64,000 nt of DNA, from NCBI GenBank assembly GCA_021205245.1, contig JAJPXZ010000173.1:1-64000 (forward strand). Reading direction: 5' to 3'. This DNA is from Planctomycetaceae bacterium (lineage in GTDB: Bacteria > Planctomycetota > SZUA-567). The position numbers and the translations under genes were made by a program. This document shows positions 44,699 to 63,450 of this stretch, piece by piece; the stretch's first letter is position 1; each line of letters opens with the position of its first letter. The notes beneath the pieces were generated by a model that saw only the letters and a program-made list of their open reading frames with translations, made no database searches and was not told the origin of the DNA.

Positions 44699-46762
44699 GT
44701 GGCTGATTCACCGGAAAAAGCTGGCCGATACCGTCGCCTCGCGTTATTAACTCTTACTATCGTTCCTTCGCTGGTGGCTGCGGCGACCATGTATCATATC
44801 CTGCCGGCTCGCGACGGACATCTCTTGAATGTACTGATCGCCCTCCTCTTCGCAACGCTGTTCGCGTGGGTATCGATGGGGTTTTGGAGCGCGCTTGCCG
44901 GCCTGCTCGTCATGCTGTTTCGTTATGACCGTTTTGTCGTCACCGCATCGCTGCCGAAAAGCCAGCCCCTCAAGCCCGAAGCGCGCGCCGCCATTCTCTT
45001 CCCTCTCTACAACGAAGACATCACCCGTGTCATCGAAGGGGTGCGCGTGGTGTGGCGGTCGCTCGCGGCTGCGGGTGCGCGGGACAACTTCGACATCTTT
45101 ATCCTTTCCGATTCCACCAGCCCGGATGCGTGGGTGAACGAGGAAGAAGCCTGGAACGCATTGTGCCGAGAAGAAGACGGCTTTGAGCATATCTTCTACC
45201 GCCACCGCAAGATCAATCGGAAAGGCAAAAGCGGCAATGTCGCCGATTTCTGCCGCCGCTGGGGCGCGAATTACCCCTACATGATCGTCTTCGACGCCGA
45301 CAGCCTTATGGCGGGCGAGACCCTCGTGCGTATGGTTCAGGCGATGGAAGCGCGGCCTGACATCGGCATTCTCCAGACAACGCCGAAGTCCATCAACAGC
45401 CGTTCGCTGATTGCCCGCATTCAGCAGTTCTCGAACCATCTCTATGGCCCGGTGTTTGCCGCCGGACTGCATTACTGGCAACTGGCGGATGCGCAATATT
45501 GGGGCCATAACGCCATTATCCGCACCGCACCGTTTATCCAGCACTGCCACCTCCCCGTCCTCGACGGGCCGAAACCGCTCGGCGGGCCGATCCTCAGTCA
45601 TGATTTTGTCGAAGCCGCGCTCATGCGGCGGGCCGGGTATGGCGTCTGGCTTGCCTATGAACTTGAAGGTTCCTATGAGGAAAACCCGCCGTCACTCATC
45701 GACGAGCTGGTGCGGGACAGGCGCTGGTGCCAGGGGAATCTGCAGCACAGCAAGCTTGTCCTGGCGAAGGGCTTCTTCCCCACGCATCGGGCGCTGTTCA
45801 TCAACGGCATCATGTCCTATTTTTCCGCCCTGCTCTGGTTCTTTTTCCTGATCGTCAGCACGGTGCAGGCGGTTGCCGTTCTCTTTCGGCTGCCGGTGTA
45901 TTTTCCCGAAGGGCCGACGCTGCTGCCGAGTTGGCCGCAGTATTTTTCCGGATGGATGTTGGCTCTGTTCACCGGGACCGCCGTCCTTCTCTTCTTGCCC
46001 AAACTGCTGACGCTATTGCTGGTGCTGGTAAAAGGCGGAAGCCGCGCCTTTGGCGGCGGGCCGGCCATGCTAGCGAGTGCGGTGTTTGAACTGTTGCTCT
46101 CCGCGCTGCTGGCGCCGGTGCGGATGCTGTATCATAGCCTTTTCGTCATCACCACTCTGCTTGGCTTTACCGTGCGCTGGAATACGCAAAACCGCGACGC
46201 GAGCGGCACCACCTGGCTGGAGGCGATTCGCTTTCACTGGTGGGGCGTGTTTATCGGCATGGTGTGGGGCGGGCTGATCATGATTGTCAATCCGCCGTTC
46301 TTTGTCTGGCTGTCGCCCATCGTGGCGGGCTTGGCGATTTCAATTCCACTGTCTGTGTGGACGAGCCGCTCCAGCCTGGGCCTGACCGCGATGCGGTGGG
46401 GGCTTTTTCTGACGCCGGCGGAGACATGCCCACCTGCCGAGGTCGCAGCGCTTAACAAGCTGATGCGGCGATCCACCTACCACTCGCCGTTCCGGATCGC
46501 GCCGGACAACGGTTTTATCAGGGCGGTGGTTATCCCGAAGACCTTTGCCCTACACCTGGCGCTTTCGGCCCACAAGCGAAAAAGCAACCCGGCAAAGGAA
46601 GCCGAATTGGCTGCGTTGGTGGAGAAAGCGGTGGCGGAAGGACCGGGCGGGCTTTCGGCCAAGGAAAAAAATACCCTGCTGCGCGAGCCGAAGGCGCTTG
46701 CCGATTTGCATACGCGGGTCTGGGCGCTGGCCGATGCCGAGCAGTGGGGAATCGTCTGCTGA
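44699..46762 (+). CDS. opgH: Glucans biosynthesis glucosyltransferase MdoH
   Basis: ILFPLYNEDITRVIEGV, IFILSDSTSPDAWVNEEEAW, FDADSLMAGETLVRMVQAME, RRWCQGNLQHSKL. Confidence 0.95.
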   Translation: MADSPEKAGRYRRLALLTLTIVPSLVAAATMYHILPARDGHLLNVLIALLFATLFAWVSMGFWSALAGLLVMLFRYDRFVVTASLPKSQPLKPEARAAILFPLYNEDITRVIEGVRVVWRSLAAAGARDNFDIFILSDSTSPDAWVNEEEAWNALCREEDGFEHIFYRHRKINRKGKSGNVADFCRRWGANYPYMIVFDADSLMAGETLVRMVQAMEARPDIGILQTTPKSINSRSLIARIQQFSNHLYGPVFAAGLHYWQLADAQYWGHNAIIRTAPFIQHCHLPVLDGPKPLGGPILSHDFVEAALMRRAGYGVWLAYELEGSYEENPPSLIDELVRDRRWCQGNLQHSKLVLAKGFFPTHRALFINGIMSYFSALLWFFFLIVSTVQAVAVLFRLPVYFPEGPTLLPSWPQYFSGWMLALFTGTAVLLFLPKLLTLLLVLVKGGSRAFGGGPAMLASAVFELLLSALLAPVRMLYHSLFVITTLLGFTVRWNTQNRDASGTTWLEAIRFHWWGVFIGMVWGGLIMIVNPPFFVWLSPIVAGLAISIPLSVWTSRSSLGLTAMRWGLFLTPAETCPPAEVAALNKLMRRSTYHSPFRIAPDNGFIRAVVIPKTFALHLALSAHKRKSNPAKEAELAALVEKAVAEGPGGLSAKEKNTLLREPKALADLHTRVWALADAEQWGIVC

Positions 46763-46817: not shown

Positions 46818-48464
46818 TTAATACAGACGAATCGGCAGCGTATAGATTTTTCCGCCCGCATCCATGAACACGGTGAGCACTTCGTCCTCCGGCGGCATGA
46901 ATTGTGGGAACGTGAGGGTGTTCGCGCCTTCGGCCGAATCCATCGCCGTTTCAAACACCGTCTCGCCGTCGTCGTCCATGATGCGGAACTTCACATCGCG
47001 CGCTTCTTCCAAAAAGAACGGTAACCCGTAGAGACCCGTGTCGGGATGGCGTCGCATCGGGTAGGCGTCGGGGACGTTTTCGTCGCCATCACGGCGTAGG
47101 GCGACAACCGCTTCGGGGAAGCCTTCGTCATGGCGCGGCGGGTGGAACCCGGCAGCGAGCAGGCCCTGGCGGACGTCCTTGTCTCCCATCAGCAAATTCC
47201 ACAACAGGCCGGAGCGGTAATTTTCCACCATACACACCATTGGCATTTGGTCGATGGCGAGGTAATGCTTGCTGACCCAATCGTCGCGAAGGCTGACCGC
47301 GTCGTAGGGACCGTATTCGCCCCAGGCGCGGCGCTTCATGCCATTGGCGAGGTTGTTCAGCACCTGCATGGAGAAATGCGGCGTGTACGGCATCGACGAG
47401 ACGGCGGCGGTCGGCGCAACAGTGCCGTTGTCGTTGATGGGGTCGTTGGCGAAATACCCGTTCTTGGTGTGGCAGGCGGTCAGGCCCCAGAAGTTTTCCG
47501 CATACTTGTTCTGCGCCGGCGCTTCGTAGAGGCAATAGCCACGGTTGGAAAGGGTGTGTTTAACGCCACGGACGAAGTAGCCCTTCTTAACGTATTCATC
47601 GGCAAGCAGGTGTGGGTTCAGGCCGATGAACGAGTAATGTGCCAGAAAGAGCGGGCCGCCCGAAAGGGACGTGGCTTCGACCTCGTAGCCGCTGATGGTG
47701 CGGGGGAGATAGGCTGCGCCGGAGGTCCAATAGTCGTAGGCCTTGCGGCTGATTGGATGGGTCGGCGAGGCGATGGCGAGGACATAGGTGATGAGGCATT
47801 CATTATAGCCGAGTATCTTTAGGCCGTTGTGGAAGCCTTTTTTGGGATCCCAATGCCAGTAGAGGCCTTCGTCCTCGCCGTTGGTGAACCAATTCCAATC
47901 CACGTCCTCCCACAGCTCGGTGATGGCTGCGCGTAGCTTTTCTTCGACGCCGGGGCCGTTGAAATACGCGCGGGCGATGAGGAGGCCTTGCAGGAGGAAT
48001 GACGTTTCGACCAGGTCGGCGCCTTCGTCCCGGTCGCCAAACGGCAGGGCATTGCCGGTGTTGCCGTCCAGCCAATGGGGAAATGCGCCGTGTAGGCGCT
48101 GGCGGGGTGTCTTGTCGCGCAGGAAGGTGACGATCTTCACGAGACGAGAGAGCGCTTCGTCGCGCGTCACCCATTCGCGGTCCACGGCGGCGATGGTTGC
48201 GGCGATGGCGAATCCGGTGCCGCCGACCGCGATAGGACGATTGTCCCAGTCATAATTGGCTTCATACACCATACCCGAAGCGGGATCGCCGTCATCCCAA
48301 AAATAGCGGAAGGCATCGTGTTGGAGCTTGTCCAGGACGGCTTGGTCATTGAGGTGGCTCTTATCCGGAGTATAAGCGGCATGTGCAGGCCGCACCGGCA
48401 ACTGGAAGAGGAGAACCGCCATGAGGGGCAGGCACAAGGGCACGATAGGTCTATTAAAGGCCAT
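46818..48464 (-). CDS. Glucoamylase-like family protein, GH144-like (endo-beta-1,2-glucanase candidate)
   Basis: Signal peptide; LDKLQHDAFRYFWDDGDPASGMVYE..., GGTGFAIAATIAAVDREWVTRDEA, YWHWDPKKGFHNGLKILGYNECLITYVLAIASPTH. Confidence 0.8.
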   Translation of the reverse strand: MAFNRPIVPLCLPLMAVLLFQLPVRPAHAAYTPDKSHLNDQAVLDKLQHDAFRYFWDDGDPASGMVYEANYDWDNRPIAVGGTGFAIAATIAAVDREWVTRDEALSRLVKIVTFLRDKTPRQRLHGAFPHWLDGNTGNALPFGDRDEGADLVETSFLLQGLLIARAYFNGPGVEEKLRAAITELWEDVDWNWFTNGEDEGLYWHWDPKKGFHNGLKILGYNECLITYVLAIASPTHPISRKAYDYWTSGAAYLPRTISGYEVEATSLSGGPLFLAHYSFIGLNPHLLADEYVKKGYFVRGVKHTLSNRGYCLYEAPAQNKYAENFWGLTACHTKNGYFANDPINDNGTVAPTAAVSSMPYTPHFSMQVLNNLANGMKRRAWGEYGPYDAVSLRDDWVSKHYLAIDQMPMVCMVENYRSGLLWNLLMGDKDVRQGLLAAGFHPPRHDEGFPEAVVALRRDGDENVPDAYPMRRHPDTGLYGLPFFLEEARDVKFRIMDDDGETVFETAMDSAEGANTLTFPQFMPPEDEVLTVFMDAGGKIYTLPIRLY

Positions 48465-48755
48465 AGGATGAGCGAGTCCAATTGCGGTCAGAGAGTAAAG
48501 GTAATGTCGTGAAATTACCCTTACATATGTCGGTGTTATGGGCGGATCCTGCTTGAACTAGTACTAAATATCACCTACATCCATAATCATCTGTGGAAGC
48601 GGATATAAAAGGTTGAAATTGGTTTTTACCAGTGGAGATTTTTCCCCTTGATATTCGCTCCCTTAATGGTACTATAACCCTAAGAAATTTCTGCTAAATA
48701 TTTGGCTAGGCAAATAGATTCCAATGCAACCACAATGCTGGTATTATTTTATGGT

Positions 48756-48824
48756 GGGTTTAACTTGGCCGTCCTTCCGGTAGACCGGAACGAGACAGTA
48801 TCCTCGGTTTGTCAAGTTAAACCC
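48756..48824 (+). ncRNA. Candidate structured RNA with three-way junction (P1 12 bp; P2 UUCCGG-UAGA-CCGGAA; P3 CGAG-N8-CUCG)
   Basis: GGGTTTAACTTG (48756-48767) pairs perfectly with CAAGTTAAACCC (48813-48824), enclosing two hairpins; terminator follows at once. Confidence 0.55.
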
Positions 48825-48827
48825 TTC

Positions 48828-48858
48828 AAAACTTCCGCCCCGAGGCGGAAGTTTTTTT
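48828..48858 (+). terminator. Rho-independent terminator after candidate RNA
   Basis: AAAACTTCCGCC-CCGA-GGCGGAAGTTTTTTT. Confidence 0.88.
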
Positions 48859-48909: not shown

Positions 48910-49926
48910 ATGATATGCATCCCAATCAGCGCCGCTACCAACCGGGAGATGCTCGCCCTCATCCGCCAGGCTGCCCTCGAACCGGCCGATTGCTATGAAC
49001 TTCGCCTAGACAACCTCGAGGAGCCGGCGCTGGTGGAGGAACTCGTCGCCGCCTGCGACAGGCCCATAATGGCCACGTGTCGCTCGACCGAAGAGGGTGG
49101 CGGCTACCGGGGCGGCTTCGCGAATCGACGCGATATCCTTCGCCGGGCAATTCTCGCCGGTGTGGAATATATCGACTGCGAAGCAAGCGACATGACCAGC
49201 CTGCGCGGTATCGGTAAGTCCAAACTTGTCATCAGTATGCACGATTTCAGCGGCACGCCGGCCGACCTCGAGTACCGTGTCTCCGCCCTTTCCGCGACCC
49301 AGGCGGATTGGGTCAAGTTCGCCGTCACCGCCCACAGCCAGGCCGACAACCTCAAGGTCTTCGATGTCGCTTCCCACTGCCATAAGCCGGTCATCAGTAT
49401 CGCTATGGGCGAAATGGGCCTGATTAGCCGCGTCCTGGGAAGGCGCTACGGCTCGCGGATAACCTTCGCCAGCTTGGATGCCGGCCGCGAATCCGCGCCC
49501 GGGCAAATCACCGCGCGCGAACTGGCGCGTCTGTACCGGTACGACCGCATCGACGACAACACGCAGCTCTTCGGTGTGCTTGCCGCACCCGGCTCCGGAC
49601 GGCACGACGTCATGGCGATGAACCTGGCCTTCATCAATGTGGGGCAAAACGCCGTGTGCATCCCCTTTGCCGCTCCCGACGGCGCGGAGTTTTTGCAAAC
49701 CATGCCGGCCGCCCTCGGGCTTCAGGGTCTGCGTGTCGCCGAAGTGCACCAAAAAGTCGCCTTGGAATGGGCTGACGAAGCCACCGCCCGAGCCAGAAGC
49801 GTCGGCGCCGCCAGCGTCCTCCTTCGCCGAGACGGGAGGTGGATTGCGGATTACGACCAAACCGCCTCGGGGGAGGGCCGCTGCCCTTTTTTGCATTTCA
49901 ACATCGGGATGGCGACATCGGCGTAA
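48910..49926 (+). CDS. aroD: Type I 3-dehydroquinate dehydratase fused to a degenerate shikimate-dehydrogenase substrate-binding domain
   Basis: CYELRLDNLEE, VISMHDFSGTP (His), VKFAVTAHSQAD (Lys), APGQI; C-terminal segment resembles AroE N-domain (LFGVLAAPGSGRHDVMAMNLAFINVGQNAVCIPF...AASVLLRRDGRWIADYD). Confidence 0.82.
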   Translation: MICIPISAATNREMLALIRQAALEPADCYELRLDNLEEPALVEELVAACDRPIMATCRSTEEGGGYRGGFANRRDILRRAILAGVEYIDCEASDMTSLRGIGKSKLVISMHDFSGTPADLEYRVSALSATQADWVKFAVTAHSQADNLKVFDVASHCHKPVISIAMGEMGLISRVLGRRYGSRITFASLDAGRESAPGQITARELARLYRYDRIDDNTQLFGVLAAPGSGRHDVMAMNLAFINVGQNAVCIPFAAPDGAEFLQTMPAALGLQGLRVAEVHQKVALEWADEATARARSVGAASVLLRRDGRWIADYDQTASGEGRCPFLHFNIGMATSA

Positions 49927-49951: not shown

Positions 49952-50860
49952 TTACATCGCGCTTTTGAAGGATTTGATAAAGCTGCCGAGCAGCGGTTTT
50001 TTGCTAGTGTTCCGTTTTCTGACAATGCTCACCTTCCAGTCCGGAAGGGTCGGCGCGGTGGTGAAAAATCGCGGCGCCGGCGGCTCGATTGGCGAAAGCG
50101 CGTACGACAGTGGCACGAAGGCCACGCCGACGTCGTGGGACGCAAGATGGATGGCGGTGGATACGCTGGCGGTAGTGACGGCGATATCCGGCGCTATTTT
50201 TTCAGCCTTGAAGAAGGCGTCGGCCGAGTCCCGAAGGCGCATGTGTTCCTGTGACAGGATGAACTTGGCGTCAACGAGGGAGGCTGGAGCGATGTACGGA
50301 TAGTCCTCGCCGTCGCGCGTTACGGCCTGATCGCAGAGCGGATTGTCTGGTGCAATCGCGAGGAGAATTTCCTCGTAAAATAACACCTCGTATAACAACG
50401 AGCGGTTCCGCCGCGTTTCGACAATGACGGCGACGTCTATGCCGCCATCCACAAGAAGGTTTTCCAATACAGACGAAGTCTCGGTATGGATAACCACCTC
50501 GATCTGCGGGTTGTCGCGGCTAAAGATCGGCAATACCTTCGGGACCAGACTTTTGCTAAAAGTATAGGAAATGCCGAAGTGGACCCGTCCGGCACTACCC
50601 TGCGATATGGCATGGAGTTCGGCGTCCATCTCATGCTTGATGCGAAGCAGTCGGCGGGTGATTTCGGAAAAGTTCTCCCCCGCTTCGGTGAGGTGCAATC
50701 CGTGCTGAACCCGGGCGAAGAGTGGGCAGCCGGTTTTTTCTTCCAGCTTGGCGAGTGTTTTCGACAAAGTCGACTGGCTGACGATGAGTTTTTCAGCCGC
50801 GCGCGAGAGGTTTTTTTCGCTGGCCATGGCGGCAAAATATTCGAGTTCCCTGAAATCCAT
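49952..50860 (-). CDS. LysR family transcriptional regulator
   Basis: MDFRELEYFAAMASEKNLSRAAEKLIVSQSTLSKTLAKLEEKTGCPLFAR. Confidence 0.93.
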   Translation of the reverse strand: MDFRELEYFAAMASEKNLSRAAEKLIVSQSTLSKTLAKLEEKTGCPLFARVQHGLHLTEAGENFSEITRRLLRIKHEMDAELHAISQGSAGRVHFGISYTFSKSLVPKVLPIFSRDNPQIEVVIHTETSSVLENLLVDGGIDVAVIVETRRNRSLLYEVLFYEEILLAIAPDNPLCDQAVTRDGEDYPYIAPASLVDAKFILSQEHMRLRDSADAFFKAEKIAPDIAVTTASVSTAIHLASHDVGVAFVPLSYALSPIEPPAPRFFTTAPTLPDWKVSIVRKRNTSKKPLLGSFIKSFKSAM

Positions 50861-50895
50861 CTTCCAACCACCTCTCTCTACCATTCCCAGCGGTT

Positions 50896-51789
50896 CTATC
50901 GGGCAAAATCCAAAACCAGCTTGGTGAAGTGTTCGGTGGCCTCATCGGGCCTGACATTTTTCAACCGGGTGAAATACACATCCATGACCACCGGGTCGCC
51001 GACAGAATAGAACGCCGGCGCTTCGGAAAAGCGGAAATGCCGTGTTCCCGTGGCTGGTGCGAAGCTGACGCCTGCGCCGGTGGCGGCAACGCGTATGGCG
51101 GTGAGAACGCTCCGGGTTTGCATCAAGATGCGGGGCGCGATTTTTTCCCGGGCGAGGAGTTCGTCCGACAGGACCCGGGTGCGCTGGTATGGGAAAAGCC
51201 GGATAAAGGAATCCCCGCTCAGCAGGTTGATATCGACCCACGGTTTGAAACAATCCTGCTTCCACACCGCATGTTCCGAGACGGGATGGTCCCGCGAGGT
51301 GACCAGCAGGATTTCGTCCCGCATCAACGGCACCTGGAAGAATTCGTTGCCTGGCAGCACGCTTGTCGTCACGGCGAGATCGGCCTGGCCACTGCGAAGA
51401 AGTTCCGCCGTGTCGTTCGATTCGATCATCATGAGGTTGACGTTGGGATGGGCGATGCGGAACTGGCGAATGGCGAAGGGATGGATATAACTGCCCTCGA
51501 ATGGTGGACACGTCACGCGGAGAAAACGGTCGGCCTCACGCGGCGCGACTTTTTCCAATTCACCGGCGATGCTTTCGATCTGCCGTGCATAGGCGATGAA
51601 TCGCTCGCCCGCATAGGTCGGTACGTAGCCGCCCTCACCCCGCTCGAATAGTTCCACGCCGAGGTTGTCCGAAAGATTCCGCAGATAGGTCGTCAAGGAC
51701 GGCTGGGAAATACCCAACGTTTTGGCAGCCGAAGAAATACTGCCGTTCTCCACCACCGCCATGACATACCGCATTGATTTGAAATCCAT
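50896..51789 (-). CDS. LysR family transcriptional regulator
   Basis: MDFKSMRYVMAVVENGSISSAAKTLGISQPSLTTYLRNLSDNLGVELFERG. Confidence 0.93.
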   Translation of the reverse strand: MDFKSMRYVMAVVENGSISSAAKTLGISQPSLTTYLRNLSDNLGVELFERGEGGYVPTYAGERFIAYARQIESIAGELEKVAPREADRFLRVTCPPFEGSYIHPFAIRQFRIAHPNVNLMMIESNDTAELLRSGQADLAVTTSVLPGNEFFQVPLMRDEILLVTSRDHPVSEHAVWKQDCFKPWVDINLLSGDSFIRLFPYQRTRVLSDELLAREKIAPRILMQTRSVLTAIRVAATGAGVSFAPATGTRHFRFSEAPAFYSVGDPVVMDVYFTRLKNVRPDEATEHFTKLVLDFAR

Positions 51790-52054: not shown

Positions 52055-52271
52055 TGGCATGTAGCCCCGCTAGCGGCTACACTGATAGTGTCCCAAGCTA
52101 AACGGCTATATCCTAACCAGGCACACTTCACGTTATTGCAGCCACATCACTGAAGCACATCCTATCGACCACGTCACCCATACTGCGTCACTACGCGGCG
52201 CGGGAGCGCACGAACCGTGTCAAAACCGTCGTCCCTTGTGGACGTATTCCCTGACTGGAGGATTATTCGAG

Positions 52272-53729
52272 ATGGCAGACGTTAAGAAGTATATGAACTT
52301 TATCGACGGCAAATGGACCGCCCCCACCACGAACGAATACTACGATAATATCAATCCCGCGAACCGCGACGACGTCATCGGCAAATACCCTCTCTCAGCC
52401 AAGAAGGATGTCGATACGGCAATAGATAGCTGCCAGCGCGCTTTCAAGGTCTGGAGCAAGATGCTGGTCGGAGAACGGGAAAAGATTATAAACAAGTTCG
52501 TCGAACTCCTCGACGCGAACAAGCAGAAGATTGGCGAGATGCTCACCCGCGAACAAGGCAAGACGCTGAAGGAAGCTTTGGGCGAACCGACTCGCGGCGT
52601 TGTCGAATGCCGGTATTTCATGGGCGAAGGCACCCGCCTCGAAGGCATCACCATGCCGTCCGACCGTCCCGGCGTCATGTCGGTAGCGCAACGGGTTCCG
52701 CTGGGCGTGGTCGCCGCCATCGCGCCGTGGAATTTCCCCTTCCTCACCCCGCTTCGCAAAATCATGCCCGCCCTGGTCTGCGGCAACACGGTGATTTTCA
52801 AGCCCGCGTTCGAGACCCCCCAGTGCGGCGTCATGCTTATGGAATTGTTCGAACAGGCAGGCCTGCCCGCCGGCGTCGTCAACATGGTTATCGGCAAGGG
52901 CAGCGTCATGGGCGACGCCATATCGTCGAATCCGCTGGTTCGCGGCATCACCTTTACCGGGTCCACCGGAGTCGGCCAGCGCATTAACGAAACCGCCGCC
53001 AAGAACTTCACCAAGGTCCAGTTGGAGATGGGCGGCAAGAATCCTTCCGTCGTCGCCAACTATTCGAAGCTTGCCGCCGCCGCCAAGCAGCTCGCCGGCG
53101 CGGCCTACGCCCTCGCCGGTCAGCGCTGCACTTCCATCAGCCGGGTCATCGTCCTCGAGGATCAGGCGGAAGAGTTCGAAAACTATCTCGCTGAAGAAAC
53201 CACCAAGTTCGTTATGGGCGACGGCATGGACCCCAAGGTCACCATCGGCCCGGTCATGAATCAGAAAGCCTGCGATGATATCTTGGGCTACATCCAGTCC
53301 GCCAAGGACGAAGGCGCCACCATCCGCGTCGGCGGCAAACAACTCACCGGCGGCATCTACGACAAGAGCTGCTGGATTGAGCCGACCCTCATCACCAACG
53401 TGACGCCGAAAATGAAGGTGGCGATTGACGAAATCTTCGGGCCGGTCCTCGTCGTCCTCCGCGCCAAGAATTTTGAAGAAGCGGTCGCCATGGCCAACGA
53501 CACCAAGTACGGCCTCGCCTCGTCCATCTTCACAGACGACCTCGACAAGATTTACTACTTCGTCCAGGAAATCGAATCCGGCATGGTCCACATCAACCAC
53601 GGAACAGTCACCGACGGCACCATGCCGTTCGGCGGGGTCAAGCAGTCCGGTATCGGTCAGTTCTCAAAGGGCAAGACCAACAAGGACTTCTTCACCCAGT
53701 ACAAGGTCGTGTACACGAAGTACGTCTAA
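52272..53729 (+). CDS. NAD(P)-dependent aldehyde dehydrogenase (succinate-semialdehyde/lactaldehyde DH-like)
   Basis: VQLEMGGKNPSVV (Glu), AGQRCTSISR (Cys), AIAPWNFPFLTPLRKIMPAL. Confidence 0.93.
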   Translation: MADVKKYMNFIDGKWTAPTTNEYYDNINPANRDDVIGKYPLSAKKDVDTAIDSCQRAFKVWSKMLVGEREKIINKFVELLDANKQKIGEMLTREQGKTLKEALGEPTRGVVECRYFMGEGTRLEGITMPSDRPGVMSVAQRVPLGVVAAIAPWNFPFLTPLRKIMPALVCGNTVIFKPAFETPQCGVMLMELFEQAGLPAGVVNMVIGKGSVMGDAISSNPLVRGITFTGSTGVGQRINETAAKNFTKVQLEMGGKNPSVVANYSKLAAAAKQLAGAAYALAGQRCTSISRVIVLEDQAEEFENYLAEETTKFVMGDGMDPKVTIGPVMNQKACDDILGYIQSAKDEGATIRVGGKQLTGGIYDKSCWIEPTLITNVTPKMKVAIDEIFGPVLVVLRAKNFEEAVAMANDTKYGLASSIFTDDLDKIYYFVQEIESGMVHINHGTVTDGTMPFGGVKQSGIGQFSKGKTNKDFFTQYKVVYTKYV

Positions 53730-53802
53730 TTACGAATCGCACTGGCCGGCGGAATGGCTGCTCCGCACTGTTCCGCCGCCAAATAGAGAAGGAAGGCATT
53801 CC

Positions 53803-54477
53803 ATGATTCATGTGCGCACGAAATTTCAGCGGCCGGACGCGAAGGTGGTCGAGGCGTTCAAAAAGCACGCCAGCGCCACCGTTCACGAAGCCTCGGGCCG
53901 TAAGGGCTATATCGACTACCGCATTAAGCCCATCGCCACTGGCCTGCGGATTTGCGGACCGGCATTTACCTGCGAATGCGCGCCCGGCGACAATATGATG
54001 CTCCATAAAGCGCTCGAGCGGGCGCAGCCTGGCGACGTCATCGTGGCCACGACTGCCGGCGCGGAAGACTACGGGTATTTCGGCGACCTCATGGCAACGA
54101 GCGCATTGGCCCGCAAGGTCGCCGGGCTGGCCATCCAGGGTTGCATTCGCGACAGCGCCGAAATCATCGAAGCAGGCTTCCCAATCTTCTCCACCGGCAA
54201 GTGCATTCGCGGCACCGGCAAGGGCACCCTCGGCCTTATCAACTACCCGATATTCTTCGGCGGCTGCCAGATTGAACCAGGCGATATCATCATCGGCGAC
54301 GATGACGGCATGGTGGCGGTGAAGCTGGCCGATGCGGCAGAAATCCTGAAAAAGACCGAGGAGCGGGTCTCCAAGGAAGACGGCAAAGCGAAGACACTCG
54401 CGAGTGGTGTCTCCAGCGTCGAATTCAACAAGTTCGGCCCGATGTTCGAAAAGGCCGGCTTGGTCGAAGAAGAATAG
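53803..54477 (+). CDS. RraA family protein (HMG/CHA aldolase-like)
   Basis: GPAFTCECAPGDNMMLHKALERAQPGDVIVATT...FGDLMATSALARKVAGLAIQGCIRDSAEI. Confidence 0.9.
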   Translation: MIHVRTKFQRPDAKVVEAFKKHASATVHEASGRKGYIDYRIKPIATGLRICGPAFTCECAPGDNMMLHKALERAQPGDVIVATTAGAEDYGYFGDLMATSALARKVAGLAIQGCIRDSAEIIEAGFPIFSTGKCIRGTGKGTLGLINYPIFFGGCQIEPGDIIIGDDDGMVAVKLADAAEILKKTEERVSKEDGKAKTLASGVSSVEFNKFGPMFEKAGLVEEE

Positions 54478-54486
54478 GAAGACCTC

Positions 54487-55530
54487 ATGAAAATCGACGT
54501 TGCATCCCTGAGAAACGCGGCAATCACCATCCTGAAATCCTGCGGCGAATCCGACGAAGGCGCGGCCACCGTCGCCGATTCCATGATAATGGCCGACTCC
54601 CGTGGCATCACCACCCACGGCACCTATCTCCTCAGCCCCATCCGCAAGCGGGTCGATGCGAATCAGTTGCCGCTTCCCACCAAGGCGACCCTGACCGAGG
54701 ACAAGGGCTGCACCGCCGTCGTTGACGGTGGCGACGGCCTCGGCGCTATCGCCGGCAAGCTGGCGGTCGAGACCGCGGTGGCGAAGGCGAAGCAGGGCGG
54801 CGTGGCATCCGTTCTTATCCGCAACACCAACAATGTCGGTTCCCTCGCCTGCTATACGGAAGCTGCGGCGCGCCAGGGCATGATTGCCACAATGACCTGC
54901 AACGCAGCGCCCGCCATGTCCCCCTGGGGCGGAGCCGAACCTTTCCTCGGCACTAACCCCCTCGCCATGGCAATCTACACCGGCACCGACACGCTCTTTT
55001 CCGCCGACATGGCCTCGAGCGTTGTGGCGCGCGGCAAAATCCGCAAAGCGGCCCGGAACGGCGAGACCATTCCCAACAATTGGGCCATGGACGCGGACGG
55101 CAATTTCACCACCGATCCAAACGCCGCGCTGAAGGGGTGCCTGCTGCCAATGGGCGGTCCCAAGGGTTCGGCCATCGCCCTGTTTGTCGATATTTTCTCC
55201 GGCCTTCTCTCCGGTTCGCGGTACGCGCGGGATTTGAAAAGCTTCCACGCGCCCGAAGGTTCCACCGGCGTCGGCGCGGCCCTGACTGTTTTCAATATCG
55301 AAAACTTCATGCCGCTCGCGACCTTCAAGAACTTGATGCAGGACTACATCACTCAAATGAAAAGCCTGCCAAAAGCCAAGGGCTTTGACGAAATCTACCT
55401 GCCGGGCGAAATCGAACAAAATCGCGAACGCACCAGCCGTTCCGAAGGGGTCAACCTGGACGACAACGCGGTCAAGGCCATCGACGATTTGCTCGAAGCC
55501 GCCGGTTCGGCGCAACGCTTACAAAAATAA
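54487..55530 (+). CDS. Ldh family oxidoreductase (malate/L-lactate dehydrogenase-like, YlbC/YiaK type)
   Basis: ADSRGITTHGTYLL, NTNNVGSLACYTEAAARQGMIA, MGGPKGSAIALFVDIFSGLLSGS. Confidence 0.92.
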   Translation: MKIDVASLRNAAITILKSCGESDEGAATVADSMIMADSRGITTHGTYLLSPIRKRVDANQLPLPTKATLTEDKGCTAVVDGGDGLGAIAGKLAVETAVAKAKQGGVASVLIRNTNNVGSLACYTEAAARQGMIATMTCNAAPAMSPWGGAEPFLGTNPLAMAIYTGTDTLFSADMASSVVARGKIRKAARNGETIPNNWAMDADGNFTTDPNAALKGCLLPMGGPKGSAIALFVDIFSGLLSGSRYARDLKSFHAPEGSTGVGAALTVFNIENFMPLATFKNLMQDYITQMKSLPKAKGFDEIYLPGEIEQNRERTSRSEGVNLDDNAVKAIDDLLEAAGSAQRLQK

Positions 55531-55574
55531 CCTGTCTGTCATTTTTCCATTATTTCCCACTCAAGGAGAACACC

Positions 55575-55934
55575 ATGTCCAAATTAGTTTGGGTCGACAT
55601 CAAGGACGTCAAGGGCGAACGGCGCGATCCGCCGCGCACGAGCTGGATCCTCGTCTCGGAAAAGGTCTGCGGATCACAGAATTTGGCGATGGGCGTCAAC
55701 AAGACGCATCCGGGCGGGGAAGTGCCGCTGCACAAGCACGAGACCGAAGAAGAGGTCATGTATTTTATAAGCGGCAAGGGCCAGTTCATTACCGACGACG
55801 AGGTTATCGAATTGAAGCCCGGCATCTGCGTCTACAATCCTCCGGGCGGCAACCACAAGATCGTCAACACCGGCGACGAGGATCTGGAATTTGTCTGGAT
55901 CTACGCGCCGCAGCTCGCAGGCCATCGCAAGTAA
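55575..55934 (+). CDS. Cupin domain protein
   Basis: GGEVPLHKHETEEEVMYFISGKGQFITDDEVIELKPGICVYNPPGGNHKIVN. Confidence 0.9.
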   Translation: MSKLVWVDIKDVKGERRDPPRTSWILVSEKVCGSQNLAMGVNKTHPGGEVPLHKHETEEEVMYFISGKGQFITDDEVIELKPGICVYNPPGGNHKIVNTGDEDLEFVWIYAPQLAGHRK

Positions 55935-55970
55935 TTAACCACTATGACAGAGTCACATCAGGAGAGAACC

Positions 55971-56954
55971 ATGGAACTCGACGTCCCGAAAAATGAATGG
56001 ACCTTCCCCACCAAGGGTGCGATAGAATCCGAAGAAAAGCTGTACTACCACACCATGACCAAGAAGGATGTGGAAGAGAAGCTCAAGAAAAACGACATCA
56101 TCATCATTCCCGTCGGCTCGACGGAAAACCATGGCAACGCCGGCCCCATCGGCGAAGATACCTTTATTTGCACCCGCATGGCGGAAATGGTCGCCAGGAA
56201 AACCGGCGCCACCATCGCCTCGCCGGTGTGGTACGGCAGCCACCCGTTCCACCATATCGGCCAGCCCCTCACCGTGCCGCTTCCGGATTCGGTCTTTATC
56301 GACTACCTCCGCGCGATCATGACGGGGCTTTGGAACACCGGCTTCCGCAAACAGATTTTCGTCTCCATGCACGGCCAGGAATACTCCCTCCCCGTCGCTA
56401 TCCAAGAGTGGGGCAAACGCTACCAGGTTCCGGCGATGTTCTACTTCGTCGACGTCCCGCGCGTCATGGCGGAACTGCTGATGGACAAAAAGCACGGTGG
56501 CCCATATGACCGTCCGTTCCAGCACGCCTGCGAAGCCGAACAGTCGATTTCGATGGCCTTGTTCCCGGAATTTTGCGACCAGGAATCAGCCGAAAACACC
56601 GACATCAAGGGCATCCTGCCCCCGTTCCACGTCGACCGTGGCGGCGACATCTACGGCTACCCGATCCCCGGCCACTGCGTCATCGGCAACGCCGGCATCG
56701 AGTGTTACACCGCGCCGGAAGGCGTACTCGGCCATGCCAAGGACGCGGATCCGGAGAAGGCCAGGGCGTCTATCGAGCGCGTGTGCGATTATCTCGTCAA
56801 GCTCCATAACGACATCCTCGCCGCCTGCCCGGTCGGCACGCTGCCGCCAGCCGAGTTCATGAGCCAGCGGCCGAAGGAAGAGATCGAAGCCCTGTTGAAA
56901 GGCCCGATGGCCGAGGGCGGCCGCCATATCTATACCGTCGCCTGGCCGACCTGA
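55971..56954 (+). CDS. Creatininase family amidohydrolase; candidate 3-dehydro-scyllo-inosose hydrolase (IolN-like)
   Basis: IIIPVGSTENHGNAGPIGEDTFI, GSHPFHHIGQPLTVPL, HGQEY metal-site pattern of creatininase superfamily. Confidence 0.8.
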   Translation: MELDVPKNEWTFPTKGAIESEEKLYYHTMTKKDVEEKLKKNDIIIIPVGSTENHGNAGPIGEDTFICTRMAEMVARKTGATIASPVWYGSHPFHHIGQPLTVPLPDSVFIDYLRAIMTGLWNTGFRKQIFVSMHGQEYSLPVAIQEWGKRYQVPAMFYFVDVPRVMAELLMDKKHGGPYDRPFQHACEAEQSISMALFPEFCDQESAENTDIKGILPPFHVDRGGDIYGYPIPGHCVIGNAGIECYTAPEGVLGHAKDADPEKARASIERVCDYLVKLHNDILAACPVGTLPPAEFMSQRPKEEIEALLKGPMAEGGRHIYTVAWPT

Positions 56955-57228
56955 GTCTTGTAATCACCCACCCGGGGCGGCGGTCCGTCGCCGTCCCGGG
57001 TAATTTTTACCATGCAGTACGCGAAGCGGCGAACACCCTTGCCGCCGACGCGATACATGTGGACAATCGTCGACTTTTCCATGCGGATAATCAACAGACT
57101 CTCGACATGGTGTGCCGCGAAAACACGGAACTCAAAGAGCGGCAATCCTTCCGAAACTGATGAATAGAACCAGCGTCTCTTGACATTTTCCATACCGCGT
57201 TTTCCCAGCACGTGAGAGGAACATCATT

Positions 57229-58266
57229 ATGAAAGCACTTGTGTTTGTCGGCCCCCGCGACATGAAATACCAGGATGTACCTACTCCCGAACCCAAGGAG
57301 GGAGAAGTTCGCATACATGTCAAAGCGGTCTCCATTTGCGGCTCCGACTCCGGCGGGTACAAAGGCGGTTCGGCTATGCGCACGCCAGGCCTCATCATGG
57401 GTCACGAGTTTTCCGGTGTTATCGAAAAGCTTGGGGCAGGGGTAACCGGTCTGGAGGTTGGTCAGCGGGTCGGCACAGTGACGTGCCTTTTCTGCGAAAC
57501 CTGCCGCGATTGCGCCGACGGTCTCGGCAACGTGTGCATGAACCGCGCCATCATCGGCACCACCATGCCGAAGTATGGCCCGTATCAGGGCGCGATGTCG
57601 GATTACGTTATTGCACCCGCCAAGAAAATCATGCCGCTCCCCGATCACGTCTCCTTCAATGAAGCGGCGCTGATTGAACCTCTCGCCATATCGCTCCGCG
57701 CCGTCAAGCACGTCAAGGACATCAAGGGCAAGACCGTTGCAGTCTACGGAGCCGGCCCCATCGGTCTCCTCGCCATGCAGGTGCTTCGCGCCCGGGAAGC
57801 CGGTCGGATTATCGCTGTCGACATGGTGGATTCACGTCTCGAGATGGCGAAACAGTGCGGTGCCACCCATATCATCAATTCCAAAAATCAGAAGGTCGAA
57901 GAAATCATCGCCTCCATGACCGATAACGGCGGTGTCGACGTCGTCTTCGATGCCGTCGGCGCGCCGGCGACCATCAACGGCGGTGTGGAAATCGTTCGGT
58001 GCGGCGGCACCGTGGTTTGGATTGGCCTGGCTGTTCCGGTGTTCGAATTTGATTACAAACATGCGGTCTGCAAGGAAATCACCTTCCAGTGCAGCTACAT
58101 GTACACGACGGAGATGGAGGAGGGTCTCGACCTCATCGCCTCGGGCAAAATGGATGTGGCAAAAATCATCACCGGCGTCTACCCGATGAGCGAAGGCGGC
58201 AAACATTTCGAGCTGATCGCCAAGGGTGAAAGCAAAGACATCAAGATTATCCTCACCAACGATTAA
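57229..58266 (+). CDS. Zn-dependent alcohol/polyol dehydrogenase (MDR); candidate scyllo-inosose 3-dehydrogenase (IolM-like)
   Basis: SICGSDSGGYKGG, GHEFSGVIEKLG, CLFCETCRDCADGLGNVC, YGAGPIGLLAMQ. Confidence 0.82.
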   Translation: MKALVFVGPRDMKYQDVPTPEPKEGEVRIHVKAVSICGSDSGGYKGGSAMRTPGLIMGHEFSGVIEKLGAGVTGLEVGQRVGTVTCLFCETCRDCADGLGNVCMNRAIIGTTMPKYGPYQGAMSDYVIAPAKKIMPLPDHVSFNEAALIEPLAISLRAVKHVKDIKGKTVAVYGAGPIGLLAMQVLRAREAGRIIAVDMVDSRLEMAKQCGATHIINSKNQKVEEIIASMTDNGGVDVVFDAVGAPATINGGVEIVRCGGTVVWIGLAVPVFEFDYKHAVCKEITFQCSYMYTTEMEEGLDLIASGKMDVAKIITGVYPMSEGGKHFELIAKGESKDIKIILTND

Positions 58267-58404
58267 GCCGCCACGACAGGGTCACCACGCGTGGTTTGGC
58301 TGTGCTCGCTCCGCCGGTCGGTTATCGCTGCCGCCCCGATCGGCGGAACCGGGCGTTTCCATCACCGCGTCCTTTGCCGCAACCAAATAAGGAGATGCCT
58401 CGCC

Positions 58405-59208
58405 ATGAAAATGCGATTATCCTATTTCGGCTTTGCCAAAGATATCGACGATATCGACAAGGCCGGCTACGACTGCATCGAAATGCATATCAAGGAGGTG
58501 ATGGCGTTCAGCCAAAGCGAGTACGAAGAGGCCAAGCGCAAGCTCAAGGGCAGTGGCATAACCGCCGAAGTATTCGACAATCCCCTGCCTCTCGACAAGG
58601 TTGTGGCCAGTCCCGATTTCGACTGGGACTTTTACGTCGACTTTCTGAAAAAAGCGGTCGAGCGCACCGCCGCCATGGGCGCGCGCTACTATGTCTATGG
58701 CAATGGCAAAACCCGTTCCAGCCGTCCCGGGTCGACTGAAGCCGACGACATCAAGAAGAACGAAGACATGCTCGCCACCCTGTGTGAATTGGCAGCCCAG
58801 GCCAATATCACTATTCTCCTGGAACCGTTGGCGAAAAGCCTCTCGACCCGCTGGCTCGGCGTTCCGGAGAATTTCGCCTATGCCAAACAATCCGGCATTC
58901 CCAACCTGAAGACGCTGATTGATTACCGCTGGTTCCTCGAGGAAAAGCATCCGATCTCCATCATCGAGGAGTATGCGGACTTTATCCAGCACGTCCACAT
59001 CGACAACCCGCTGTCGCCCTTCCCGACGCGCATACCGCCGGCCATTGACGACGGGCATGATTATGGCCCGCTTTTCGATGCCCTGAAAAAGACCTGCTAT
59101 AAGGGAATATTGTCCATTGAGGCGAACACCACGACGGACTTCCCCGCCGATCTCAAACGTGGGCTTGATCTCATAGCCAGTCATGGAATTGAAGCGTACC
59201 GTTCCTAG
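58405..59208 (+). CDS. Sugar phosphate isomerase/epimerase (TIM barrel); candidate IolO-like epimerase
   Basis: ILLEPLAKSL, LIDYRWFLEEKHPISIIEEYADFIQHVHIDN, GILSIEANT. Confidence 0.8.
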   Translation: MKMRLSYFGFAKDIDDIDKAGYDCIEMHIKEVMAFSQSEYEEAKRKLKGSGITAEVFDNPLPLDKVVASPDFDWDFYVDFLKKAVERTAAMGARYYVYGNGKTRSSRPGSTEADDIKKNEDMLATLCELAAQANITILLEPLAKSLSTRWLGVPENFAYAKQSGIPNLKTLIDYRWFLEEKHPISIIEEYADFIQHVHIDNPLSPFPTRIPPAIDDGHDYGPLFDALKKTCYKGILSIEANTTTDFPADLKRGLDLIASHGIEAYRS

Positions 59209-59269
59209 CGCTTTTTAAAGAGAGATTGGTTCGCATTCAATTTAACACGCTAAAGAGGAGGTATTATCG

Positions 59270-59926
59270 ATGAGCGCATCAACAGAAAAGCCCCGGCCGA
59301 AGCACGGCTGGTGGGACGAAAATCTCGAAGAGGTCATCCTCGTTGTGCTCCTTGTCATCATGGCGGCGATTATGGGCGTGCAGGTATTTTCCCGGTACGC
59401 ATTGCGATCGTCCCTGGTTTGGTCGGAGGAGTTGACCCGGTACATGTTCATCTGGTCGGGTTTTCTTTCCATCGCCTATTGCGCCAGGAAGAAGTTAGGC
59501 CTGAGGGTCGATCTTCTCGTCGGGTATATGCCGGCAAAGATCGCCTTTGGCATGACGATTCTCGCCTTGATTCTCGAAGGCGCCCTTTTTGTGTACCTCC
59601 TGCCGTTCGCGTATCGCATCATGATGTTGGCGGTGAATACCGGCCGTTTAAGCCCGGCGACGCAGATCCCGATGTGGATGATGCAATCGGCGCCTTTCAT
59701 CGGTTTCGGTCTCGCCGCATTCCGCATTATCCAGCGTATTTATCGCGAGCTCTCAGCCAGCAAGATCGAAGCGCCGAAAACGCTGGAAGACGAAGCGGTA
59801 GCCCATTTCATTGAAGAAGCCAAGGAAGACCTCAAGGCCGGCCACACGACGGATGAATCCTTGCGGAAAAGCTGGACCATGCGCTTCACCAAGAAGTCAT
59901 CATCGAGAAGGGAGGACAAGAAATGA
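59270..59926 (+). CDS. TRAP transporter small permease (DctQ)
   Basis: MAAIMGVQVFSRYALRSSLVWSEELTRYMFIWSGFLSIAYCARKKLGLRVDLL. Confidence 0.92.
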   Translation: MSASTEKPRPKHGWWDENLEEVILVVLLVIMAAIMGVQVFSRYALRSSLVWSEELTRYMFIWSGFLSIAYCARKKLGLRVDLLVGYMPAKIAFGMTILALILEGALFVYLLPFAYRIMMLAVNTGRLSPATQIPMWMMQSAPFIGFGLAAFRIIQRIYRELSASKIEAPKTLEDEAVAHFIEEAKEDLKAGHTTDESLRKSWTMRFTKKSSSRREDKK

Positions 59927-61215
59927 CTGTACCCCTCATTATTCTGCTGTTTTTCATATTCCTCGCGCTTGCGGTGCCGATCAGTTCGGCCCTTGCCATG
60001 GTCGCTTCCATTCCCGGCGCCTTTGACAATTCCTTTACCGCTTCCGGCGGCTATGTGGTCCGCTCGATGATCAGCGGTATCGATTCGTTCCCCCTTCTCG
60101 CCATCCCCATGTTCGTCCTTTCCGGCGTCATTATGGCCCGGGGCGGCATTTCGAAAAAGCTCTTTGAAGTGTGTTTGTATTTTATCGGCACGAGAACGGC
60201 CGGCATGCCCTGCGCCGTCGTCATCACCTGCCTGTTCTACGGGGCGATCTCCGGGTCCGCGCCCGCTACCGTTGCGGCGGTCGGTTCCATGACCATTCCG
60301 ATTCTGGTCAACATGAAATACGACAAGGTATTCGCCGTCTCGCTTGTGGCAATCGCCGGTGGCCTGGGCGTGATTATTCCCCCGAGTATCCCATTCATTC
60401 TCTACGGCACCGCTTCGGGTGCGTCGGTGGGCAAGCTGTTTATGGCCGGTATCCTGCCGGGCATACTGATCGCTCTTTTACTTATGGGCTATGCGTTCAT
60501 CTACTGCAAGAAATACGGTGAAGACCACCAAAGAATCGGCGCGGCGGTGAATGAGCTGCGCTCCAAAGGCTTCGGACGGCTCTTGTTCGAAAGCATTTGG
60601 GCGCTTTTGACGCCGGTTATCATCCTTGGCTGTATTTATACCGGGGTTGCGTCCCCGACCGAAGCGGCGGTGATATCCGTGTTCTACTCGCTTCTGGTGG
60701 CGATCTGCTTCTACAAGACGATCAAGTTCGCCGACCTGTTCAGCATCTTCCGGGAAGCGGCGAGAACCTATGCGCCGATCCTGTTTATCCTGGCCGCGTC
60801 GGTTGCGTTCTCCCGCGTTCTTACCATCATGCAGGTGCCGACGATTATTCGCGACGTGATTTTCGACAACTTTACGTCGGGAGTCGCCATCCTGCTCGTC
60901 ATCAATCTTGCCCTTCTCTTTGTCGGCATGATTATGGACGTCGGTCCCGCCATCATGATTCTCACGCCCATTCTGCTTCCCATCGTTGTTGAAATTGGCG
61001 TCGACCCGGTGCACTTCGGCGTCATTATGGTCGTGAACCTTTGTATCGGTTTTGTCACGCCGCCGGTGGGTATCAATCTCTTTGTCGCCAGCTCCATGTC
61101 CGGAGTACCGGTGGTCTCCATTGCCAGGAAAGCGGTGCCGATGATTATCGCCTTCCTTGTCGCCCTTATGTTCATCACCTTTATTCCGTGGATCAGCCTG
61201 GCGCTGGTTAGATAG
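59923..61215 (+). CDS. TRAP transporter large permease (DctM)
   Basis: SFPLLAIPMFVLSGVIMARGGISKKL; SGSAPATVAAVGSMTIPILVNMKYDK; GLGVIIPPSIPFILYG. Confidence 0.96.
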   Translation: MTVPLIILLFFIFLALAVPISSALAMVASIPGAFDNSFTASGGYVVRSMISGIDSFPLLAIPMFVLSGVIMARGGISKKLFEVCLYFIGTRTAGMPCAVVITCLFYGAISGSAPATVAAVGSMTIPILVNMKYDKVFAVSLVAIAGGLGVIIPPSIPFILYGTASGASVGKLFMAGILPGILIALLLMGYAFIYCKKYGEDHQRIGAAVNELRSKGFGRLLFESIWALLTPVIILGCIYTGVASPTEAAVISVFYSLLVAICFYKTIKFADLFSIFREAARTYAPILFILAASVAFSRVLTIMQVPTIIRDVIFDNFTSGVAILLVINLALLFVGMIMDVGPAIMILTPILLPIVVEIGVDPVHFGVIMVVNLCIGFVTPPVGINLFVASSMSGVPVVSIARKAVPMIIAFLVALMFITFIPWISLALVR

Positions 61216-61224
61216 GAGGAACGC

Positions 61225-62238
61225 ATGATTACTCTGAAACGCGCTCTCATCGCCATGATGATCCTCGGTGCGGTTGCGCTCGCGCTTCCGGTTCGCGCCA
61301 ACGCGGGCGAGGAAATGACGTTTGCATGGCCGGTCTGCGTCGACAGTCCCGAAGACGCCGTGACCTTTATCATGGCAAAACGCTTTGCCGACGAGATTAT
61401 CCGTCTCTCGAACAACCGTCTCAAGGCCAAGGTCTACCCGAACGCCATGCTTGGCGGCGACCGCGAGCTGCTGGAAAGTGTCGAAAGCGGCGACATACCG
61501 TTTGTTGTCCAGACGACAGCGCCGCAAATCGACTTTGTCCCGGAAACGGCGATTTTCAACCTGCCAAGCGCCTTCGCGGATATTCCGCAACTCCGTGCCA
61601 CAGTCAGCGATCCGGATTTCCGCAAGGTGTTCGAGGACATGTATGAAGCCCATGGGTACAAGCTTCTCGCCGTCGGCGATCAGGGCTTCCGAGTTATGAC
61701 CACAAACAAGGCGGTCCGTTCATTGGAGGATTTTCAAGGTCAGAAAATCCGCACGATGGAAAACGTCTACCATATTGCTTTCTGGCGTGCCATCGGCGCA
61801 AGTCCGACGCCGATGAACTTCGGCGAGGTCTACATCGGCCTCCAGCAAGGCACTATTGACGCCCAGGAAAATCCGTACGAAACGACGGTGGCGGCCAAAT
61901 TGTATGAACAGCAACGCTATATTGTCGAGACCAACCACGTCCCCCATCTCCTGACCCTTATCGCCTCGAAGCGGTTTTATGAGAACCTCCCGGACGAGGA
62001 TCGGGCCATCCTGGACGAAGCTGCCCGCATCGCCGCAGAATTCGCCTACCAGCAGACTGACGCGCGCCTGGACGGGCGGATTAAGATCATCACCGATTCG
62101 GGGACGGAAATCATCAAGATTGAGCCGGATCTGCGCCAGGAAATCTTCGAGGCCTCACAACCGGTCTACACCATGATCCGTCAAGCGGTGGGCGACGAAC
62201 TGGTGGATGCGATGTTGAACGCCAGGCCGGAGCGCTAG
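61225..62238 (+). CDS. TRAP transporter substrate-binding protein (DctP)
   Basis: Signal peptide; [55 protein letters not shown]-type signature. Confidence 0.94.
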   Translation: [337 protein letters not shown]

Positions 62239-62268
62239 AATTTTTAGGCGCACATCAGGAGGATTGTC

Positions 62269-63450
62269 ATGAACAAAAAAGGCACGGTCACCATCGGCAT
62301 CGTCGGCGCGGGCTACGCCTGCCAACTCCACGGCAATGGCTACCGCCGGGTCAGCGGTGTCGATATCCGCCTCAAAACCATCTGCGACACCGACGCCGCC
62401 CGTGGCAAGGCTGAACTCGATCGCTTTGGCTTTGAGCACTACGAGCCGAACTTCGACGCGATGATCGCCGACCCGGAAATCGACGTGGTCGACATCTGCA
62501 CGCCGCCGTTTCTTCACCCCGGCATGATCATCAAAGCCATCAAGGCCGGGAAACACGTCATCTGCGAAAAGCCGTTGTCCGGGTATTTCGGCATGGCCGA
62601 CGATGTCGCGCCAATTGGCGATACCGTCTCCCGTGAGAAGATGTTCGATAAGGTCATGGCCGAAATGGACGAGATAAATACCGTCGTGTCCGCCAGCGAC
62701 CGCTTGTTTATGTATGCGGAAAATTATGTATACTGCCCCACCATCCAAAAGGCGGCGCAGGTCATCCGCGGCAAAAAATCGAAGATACTTTTCATGCGGG
62801 GCGAAGAAAGCCTCAAAGGCTCAAGCTCGGCGGTGGCCGGGCAGTGGGCGCGCACCGGCGGCGGTCCTCTGGCTCGCGTCGGCTGTCACCCGCTGTCGGG
62901 CGTTCTATGGCTTAAGCAACAGGAGGCGGCTGCCCGAGGCGAGACGATAGGCATCCAAAGCGTCACCTGTGCCACAGCGGTCGCGACCAAGGGCCTGACC
63001 GACGACGAGAAACGCCATATCGCCGCCCGCCCCGAAGATGTCGAAGACGTCGCCACCATGACCATCACCTTTACGGACGGCACCATGGCACTTGTCATCG
63101 CCGGCGATGTTTGCCTCGGCGGGACGGTGAATTATGTCAATGTCTACGCCAACGACGCGACGCTCGTGTGCAACATCACCCCGCCCGGAGCCATGCGTTC
63201 CTACATGCTGGACGAGAACGGCCTCGACAATGTGGTTCTCGGCGAAATGCTGCCAATGAAAACCGGCTGGCAGGACGTGTTCGTCGTCGACGAAATTCTT
63301 CGCGGCTACACGGACGAGTTCCAGGACTTCGCCGAATGCGTCCTCACCGGTAGAAAGCCGCAGTCCGATTTCTCCTTGGCCTACGACACGACGAAGTTGC
63401 TCTATGCCGCGTACTGGTCGGCGGCCGAAGGCAGGCGGATCGATCTGTAA
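62269..63450 (+). CDS. Gfo/Idh/MocA family oxidoreductase; candidate inositol 2-dehydrogenase-like
   Basis: TIGIVGAGYACQLHGNGYRRVSG; VDICTPPFLHPGMIIKAIKAGKHVICEKPLSG. Confidence 0.92.
   Translation: MNKKGTVTIGIVGAGYACQLHGNGYRRVSGVDIRLKTICDTDAARGKAELDRFGFEHYEPNFDAMIADPEIDVVDICTPPFLHPGMIIKAIKAGKHVICEKPLSGYFGMADDVAPIGDTVSREKMFDKVMAEMDEINTVVSASDRLFMYAENYVYCPTIQKAAQVIRGKKSKILFMRGEESLKGSSSAVAGQWARTGGGPLARVGCHPLSGVLWLKQQEAAARGETIGIQSVTCATAVATKGLTDDEKRHIAARPEDVEDVATMTITFTDGTMALVIAGDVCLGGTVNYVNVYANDATLVCNITPPGAMRSYMLDENGLDNVVLGEMLPMKTGWQDVFVVDEILRGYTDEFQDFAECVLTGRKPQSDFSLAYDTTKLLYAAYWSAAEGRRIDL

Follow-up and report, generated by a model that had tools for sequence, protein, structure and literature searches.

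Descriptions of leader-peptide attenuation came from Proteobacteria and Actinobacteria and, since 2010, also from Firmicutes (PMC2965389). For Planctomycetota, the literature searched yielded no report of an attenuator that senses amino acids. A close described counterpart of the element analysed here is the E. coli pheL-pheA leader (RF01859), which combines a leader peptide rich in the sensed amino acid with a long outer stem (P1), a hairpin within P1 that holds the stop codon (P2), a terminator 3 nt after P1, and a P2 3' arm that can pair with the 5' arm of the terminator. All of these are found upstream of an aroD-like gene in a planctomycete. The two leaders have no sequence homology, however, and differ in what they appear to sense. 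The pheL-pheA leader senses Phe alone and has its Phe codons inside P1, whereas the Trp-Tyr-Tyr-Phe (WYYF) codons of the aroD leader lie before P1. Furthermore, pheL-pheA forms an 8-bp antiterminator with a modelled probability of 0.88 when the ribosome is stalled, compared with 0.00 in the aroD leader. Candidate ilvB leaders of Actinobacteria likewise have a leader peptide and a terminator with no experimentally consistent antitermination scheme, but concern branched-chain amino acids in another phylum (PMC1262725).

The window, the whole stretch of 64,000 nt that was analysed, encodes at 48910-49926 on the plus strand an aroD-like type I 3-dehydroquinate dehydratase isozyme of 338 aa (PF01487, 177 bits). 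Phe, Tyr, and Trp are the end products of the pathway served by AroD. The product scores 135 bits with TIGR01093, just below the 139-bit cut-off, and its C-terminal part aligns weakly to a bifunctional AroDE model; no separate shikimate dehydrogenase domain was detected with Pfam. A second, longer AroD-containing frame is present in the same genome on contig C21. An intergenic region of 445 nt separates aroD from a gene on the minus strand (46818-48464), and no coding gene ends upstream of the element on the plus strand. As this neighbour is divergent, the terminator found in the intergenic region (48828-48858) does not belong to any upstream plus-strand gene.

When 101 genomes were searched at the DNA level, strong homologues of the element turned up in just three others, all of the same genus: G006 (93%), G001 (82%), and G003 (81%). 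Together with the genome of the window (G000) these make up the conservation set, four genomes of one genus in two close pairs (G000/G006 and G001/G003). All four elements precede an orthologous aroD, with a different gene upstream. A model built from the element matches the aroD locus of this genus only among 296 genomes of the phylum. In a tree, the AroDs downstream of the four leaders group in a single clade (support 1.0), and their sister group (0.98) consists of leaderless short AroDs from another genus; the remaining AroD/AroDE copies that were examined likewise have no such element before them. This distribution suggests that an isozyme acquired the leader recently.

An initial annotation of this DNA had described a perfect 12-bp stem enclosing two hairpins and followed by an intrinsic terminator, and its sequences and coordinates for the stem, inner hairpin, and terminator were all correct on rechecking. 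P1 pairs GGGTTTAACTTG (48756-48767) with CAAGTTAAACCC (48813-48824) and extends to 14 pairs, with plus-strand arms at 48756-48769 and 48811-48824 according to fold prediction and alignment. P2, a predicted TTCCGG-TAGA-CCGGAA hairpin at 48775-48790 (plus strand), has a stem that is invariant in the four genomes. The second inner hairpin, P3 (48791-48806, plus strand), is present in the window as described, CGAG (48791-48794) facing CTCG (48803-48806), but its sequence and pairing differ in G006, G001, and G003. From this comparison, P3 is probably not functional as such. The junction interior also varies in sequence and length among relatives. The terminator begins 3 nt after the P1 3' arm and ends 51 nt before the aroD ATG (48910), in line with the ~50 nt first proposed. 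It consists of a 12-bp stem, AAAACTTCCGCC/GGCGGAAGTTTT (48828-48839 with 48844-48855), a CCGA loop, and a T7 tract (48852-48858, plus strand). The terminator scan found it to be the sole one in the intergenic region, and it is kept nearly invariant across the four genomes. The predicted fold agrees with the described structure, at -54 kcal/mol versus -31.9 +/- 3.5 for shuffled sequences (z = -6.36), with 0/200 shuffles as stable. Covariation, which had been proposed as a check on P1-P3, was seen in P1, with P2 invariant and P3 not conserved. Over 15 P1 positions in four genomes there are two double-sided compensatory pairs (A-U to G-C and U-A to C-G) and one A-U/G-U change, and two positions are mismatched in some genomes. 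With four sequences in two clades, covariation lends the structure modest support.

Absent from the earlier description is a short open reading frame (ORF) of 19 codons at 48724-48783 on the plus strand, which overlaps P1 and P2 and encodes MQPQCWYYFMVGLTWPSFR. It reads ATG CAA CCA CAA TGC TGG TAT TAT TTT ATG GTG GGT TTA ACT TGG CCG TCC TTC CGG TAG, with the UAG stop inside the P2 loop. The putative regulatory codons UGG UAU UAU UUU (48739-48750, plus strand) are conserved in each of the four genomes apart from a synonymous UAU/UAC change. They end 5 nt ahead of P1, and the codons that follow make up the P1 5' arm, which overlaps codons 11-16. Among dinucleotide shuffles of the intergenic region (445 nt), 0.22% contain an ATG-initiated ORF with four aromatic residues in a row and Trp, Tyr, and Phe all represented, or 0.52% if GTG and TTG starts are allowed. 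The locus thus combines a short leader ORF, in which successive codons specify end-product amino acids and are conserved in four genomes, with an intrinsic terminator (48828-48858) between this ORF and the pathway gene at 48910. No good Shine-Dalgarno sequence precedes the leader ATG in G000. A frame-2 ORF that overlaps the leader ORF and in G000 continues past the terminator was also considered and rejected, its start being lost in G006 and its frame broken between the pairs by a 5-nt indel.

The homologous leader peptides are MQPQRWYYFMVGLT (G006), MKPMVCWYYFMVGLTRQSFR (G001), and MKSMVCWYYFTVGLTRQSFR (G003), each followed by a stop codon, and the two pairs are set apart by a 3-nt in-frame indel between the ATG and WYYF. 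G006 lacks the UAG of the P2 loop, and its ORF instead ends five codons sooner at a UGA, which still overlaps P1. The onset of the conserved block is exactly the leader ATG, 32 nt 5' of P1. Identity between G000 and G006 is 47% in the 40 nt before the ATG, 93% from the ATG to the terminator, and 31% after it; the corresponding values for G001 and G003 are 35%, 95%, and 74%. The spacings from the aromatic codons to P1 and from P1 to the terminator are identical in 4/4 genomes.

Further upstream, a scan found a candidate sigma-70-type promoter, TTGATA-16 nt-TACTAT, at 48648-48675 (plus strand), although one such match is also expected by chance. The hexamers are similar in G006 (TTGATT-16-TATTAT) while the spacer diverges from that of G000, and G001 and G003 have TTGCGT-16-TATAGT in common upstream of the leader. 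Promoter-like hexamers are preserved within each genome pair. In G003, an additional terminator-like hairpin (GCCGCCTCGAAGGGCGGTTTT) lies between the promoter and the leader ATG (L012, minus strand, ~1660-1685); it is missing from the other three genomes.

The element is real and conserved, and probably regulatory. It is likely, judging from its sequence, to be a ribosome-mediated transcription attenuator through which the supply of charged tRNA-Trp, tRNA-Tyr, and tRNA-Phe would set expression of the AroD isozyme. The initial annotation had offered an attenuator of the shikimate gene among its suggestions, which is probably right given a conserved cis element with P1 covariation that always stands before aroD and has an intrinsic terminator at its end. 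The ORF, the conservation from its ATG, the covariation of P1, the terminator, and the linkage to aroD are all observed, and from these we infer that the ORF is translated, that the ribosome stalls, and in which direction the leader responds. The upstream promoter would give rise to a transcript that carries the 19-codon leader gene, with the Trp-Tyr-Tyr-Phe codons ending directly before P1. When aromatic amino acids are ample, the ribosome would reach the stop codon in the P2 loop, P1 would be melted, and the terminator would stop transcription. During aromatic shortage, the ribosome would stall on the WYYF codons and more polymerases would read through into aroD. One leader that senses Trp, Tyr, and Phe to control an enzyme of the common pathway is a sensible design. 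To our knowledge, a leader that jointly senses all three to control a common-pathway enzyme is known in no model organism.

Attenuation of this kind has a parallel in the same organisms. In each of the four genomes, trpE is preceded by a textbook Trp attenuator with a leader, an intrinsic terminator, and an antiterminator formed by regions 2 and 3 (modelled at 0.90). These attenuators lie on the minus strand ~100-260 nt upstream of trpE (L117, L118, L119, and L120; contig C85 in G000). Their leader peptides are of the WWRGNWW or WWLGSWW type, ending SWWRGNWWRLTPPAVP... (CWWRGNWW... in G006) or NWWLGSWWRVTPPAVP..., and GGCTGTTCCC in the leader can pair with the 5' arm of the terminator AGGGACAGCC/GGCTGTCCCT. 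Like the aroD leader, they combine aromatic codons with an intrinsic terminator and sense a product of the same pathway; unlike it, they sense Trp alone and possess an evident region 2:3 antiterminator, and no sequence similarity between the two was noted. Further Trp-rich leader ORFs stand before trpE in G015 (L145), G012 (L151), and G004 (L152), with terminator-like hairpins behind them, and perhaps also in the more distant G050 (L142) and G039 (L127). Such leaders thus occur elsewhere in this family and may extend to others of the phylum. No convincing aromatic leader was found before DAHP synthase or prephenate dehydratase genes in the same genomes. The presence of classical trp attenuators indicates that ribosome-mediated attenuation is probably in use in this lineage, and the aroD and trpE leaders together suggest that Planctomycetota use attenuation for aromatic amino acids.

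How a stalled ribosome would defeat the aroD terminator is less straightforward. Two candidate switches can be proposed: an antiterminator in which the P2 3' arm (48786-48790) pairs with the terminator 5' arm (48833-48837), or steric occlusion by a ribosome stalled at the foot of P1, which would be ~4 nt from the terminator through the helix. The switch was examined with a thermodynamic model only, in which a ribosome was set on each codon in turn and the RNA past it was folded. As positive controls, E. coli pheL and the four trpE leaders gave 0.88-0.90 antiterminator capture of the terminator 5' arm at their regulatory Phe or Trp codons. In pheL, this was just 0.63 at the last Phe codon and 0.01 at the stop codon, and in the four trpE leaders it fell to 0.34-0.69 at the stop codon. 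In the aroD leader, the P2 3' arm/terminator 5' arm antiterminator had a probability of 0.00 with the ribosome at W, Y, Y, or F in 4/4 genomes, because the ribosome stops before P1 and both P1 and P2 still fold. The folding model thus yielded no mutually exclusive antiterminator released by a ribosome stalled at the regulatory codons in any of the four genomes, and the classical scheme is not demonstrated at the conserved codons. The initial annotation had pointed to the P2 5' strand CTTCCG (48774-48779) and the terminator 3' strand CGGAAG (48846-48851) as an alternative fold; the complementarity is exact, but for such a switch P2 would have to open once the terminator hairpin had already formed. 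Kinetically, the sensible pairing is between the P2 3' arm and the terminator 5' arm, although in the model even this is not released by a ribosome at WYYF. Another pairing, AAGUU/AACUU between the 3' arm of P1 and the 5' arm of the terminator, was discarded as it is absent in G001 and G003.

The antiterminator does appear in the model when the ribosome is at about codons 14-18, and only there, reaching 0.8-0.9 in G001/G003 and 0.2-0.7 in G000/G006. It may be that the leader is a strictly classical attenuator, in which ribosomes slowed inside P1 (at Trp15 in G000, or Phe18/19) expose the P2 3' arm as antiterminator and WYYF sets the timing only. This would be a sub-mechanism of aromatic attenuation and not an exclusive alternative to it. 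The invariance of the P2 stem is in keeping with such a role, as is the CUUCCG that occurs in the 5' arms of both P2 and the terminator, for which a rough hand estimate puts chance at 0.3%. However, the conserved regulatory codons lie upstream of the codon 14-18 window, and codon 15 is Trp in G000 only; G001/G003 have Arg there, and in G006 it is a stop codon. In G006, a ribosome at the normal stop would by its position favour antitermination. The strictly classical scheme is possible but somewhat doubtful.

More tentatively, and with rather low probability, the leader may attenuate with no antiterminator at all. Here P1 would serve as a bridge: the stalled ribosome would leave it intact, be held by it ~4 nt from the terminator stem, and block folding of the terminator, while an unstalled ribosome would melt P1 and the terminator would then work. 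This hypothesis fits the fixed spacings from codons to P1 and from P1 to the terminator in the four genomes. Reports of terminators being suppressed by a nearby ribosome (PMC4824070) are likewise compatible with it. In pyrBI-type control, such closeness acts without an antiterminator as proposed here, but there the stop codon is near the terminator in sequence, whereas in the aroD leader the nearness is hypothetical and would arise via the P1 helix only. If the antiterminator is truly missing, the leader would reveal a further means by which stalled ribosomes overcome terminators.

In the folding model, termination is the predicted outcome at a WYYF stall and at the stop codon alike. This would suit a leader that responds in the opposite sense, or an ORF that is translated with no regulatory effect. 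Either is unlikely, as there is little reason other than aromatic sensing for four consecutive aromatic codons to be conserved ahead of an aromatic-pathway gene.

The initial annotation also raised a standalone sRNA. An extended -10 promoter (TGGTATTAT) just before P1 could produce an RNA of ~105 nt, with the WYYF codons being promoter sequence, and in G000/G006 a TGN-TATTAT is found at the right distance from P1. The box becomes TATTAC in G001/G003, however, and the block is conserved back to the ATG, with another promoter-like element upstream, sequence features that favour a longer leader transcript. The tight linkage to aroD also argues against an independent sRNA, which is considered unlikely. 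A terminated leader would be a small RNA in any case and could act in trans, as is reported for the Sinorhizobium trp leader peptide (PMC7298713).

A ligand-binding riboswitch or protein-binding leader made of P1-P2, with the ORF accidental, would account for a stable conserved structure immediately before a biosynthetic gene. It is nevertheless highly improbable. The three-way junction proposed earlier is unsupported as a ligand riboswitch because P3 is missing in relatives, no Rfam family matches above threshold, and conservation starts not at P1 but 32 nt before it, at the leader ATG; the junction interior is variable as well. The lack of resemblance to riboswitch consensuses noted initially holds for T-box elements, riboswitches, and other Rfam cis elements. 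Gathering-level Rfam matches in the whole window are limited to two tRNAs, with no convincing weak match at the element. The Phe_leader model (RF01859) gives it 34.3 bits, below the 55-bit gathering threshold, and finds no genome above the cut-off among 101. Its highest-scoring site within G000 lies elsewhere, at 44.3 bits on contig C178 (L092:1470-1630), where a response-regulator gene and lysS converge on a long stem flanked by two strong terminator-like hairpins. This is likely a false positive at an ordinary terminator pair. With this stronger 44-bit match in view, the covariance-model resemblance was dropped as evidence of membership, and the likeness to pheL-pheA is one of architecture only.

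Strong terminators are common, and an ordinary terminator pair reaches comparable Rfam scores, which could point to an ordinary terminator with a chance hairpin or to a mobile repeat, but this is scarcely credible for a single-copy element that is 93-95% conserved with compensatory pairs beside a divergent neighbour. Scatter of the kind seen with MITEs, with P1 as terminal inverted repeats, is excluded in practice by its fixed synteny with aroD and because a search of 296 genomes from the phylum found no copy away from the aroD locus.

The surrounding genes of the window are of other kinds. The divergent neighbour (46818-48464) is a PF10091 gene, a putative glucoamylase, and is convergent with a homologue of the glucan biosynthesis glucosyltransferase MdoH at 44699-46762; the two are perhaps a beta-glucan synthesis/turnover pair. 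Beyond aroD, two adjacent LysR regulators (49952-51789) are divergent from a long gene run at 52236-63450. Its genes resemble aldehyde dehydrogenase, RraA-like proteins, dehydrogenases, and parts of a TRAP transporter, and the run is probably a catabolic cluster unrelated to aroD.
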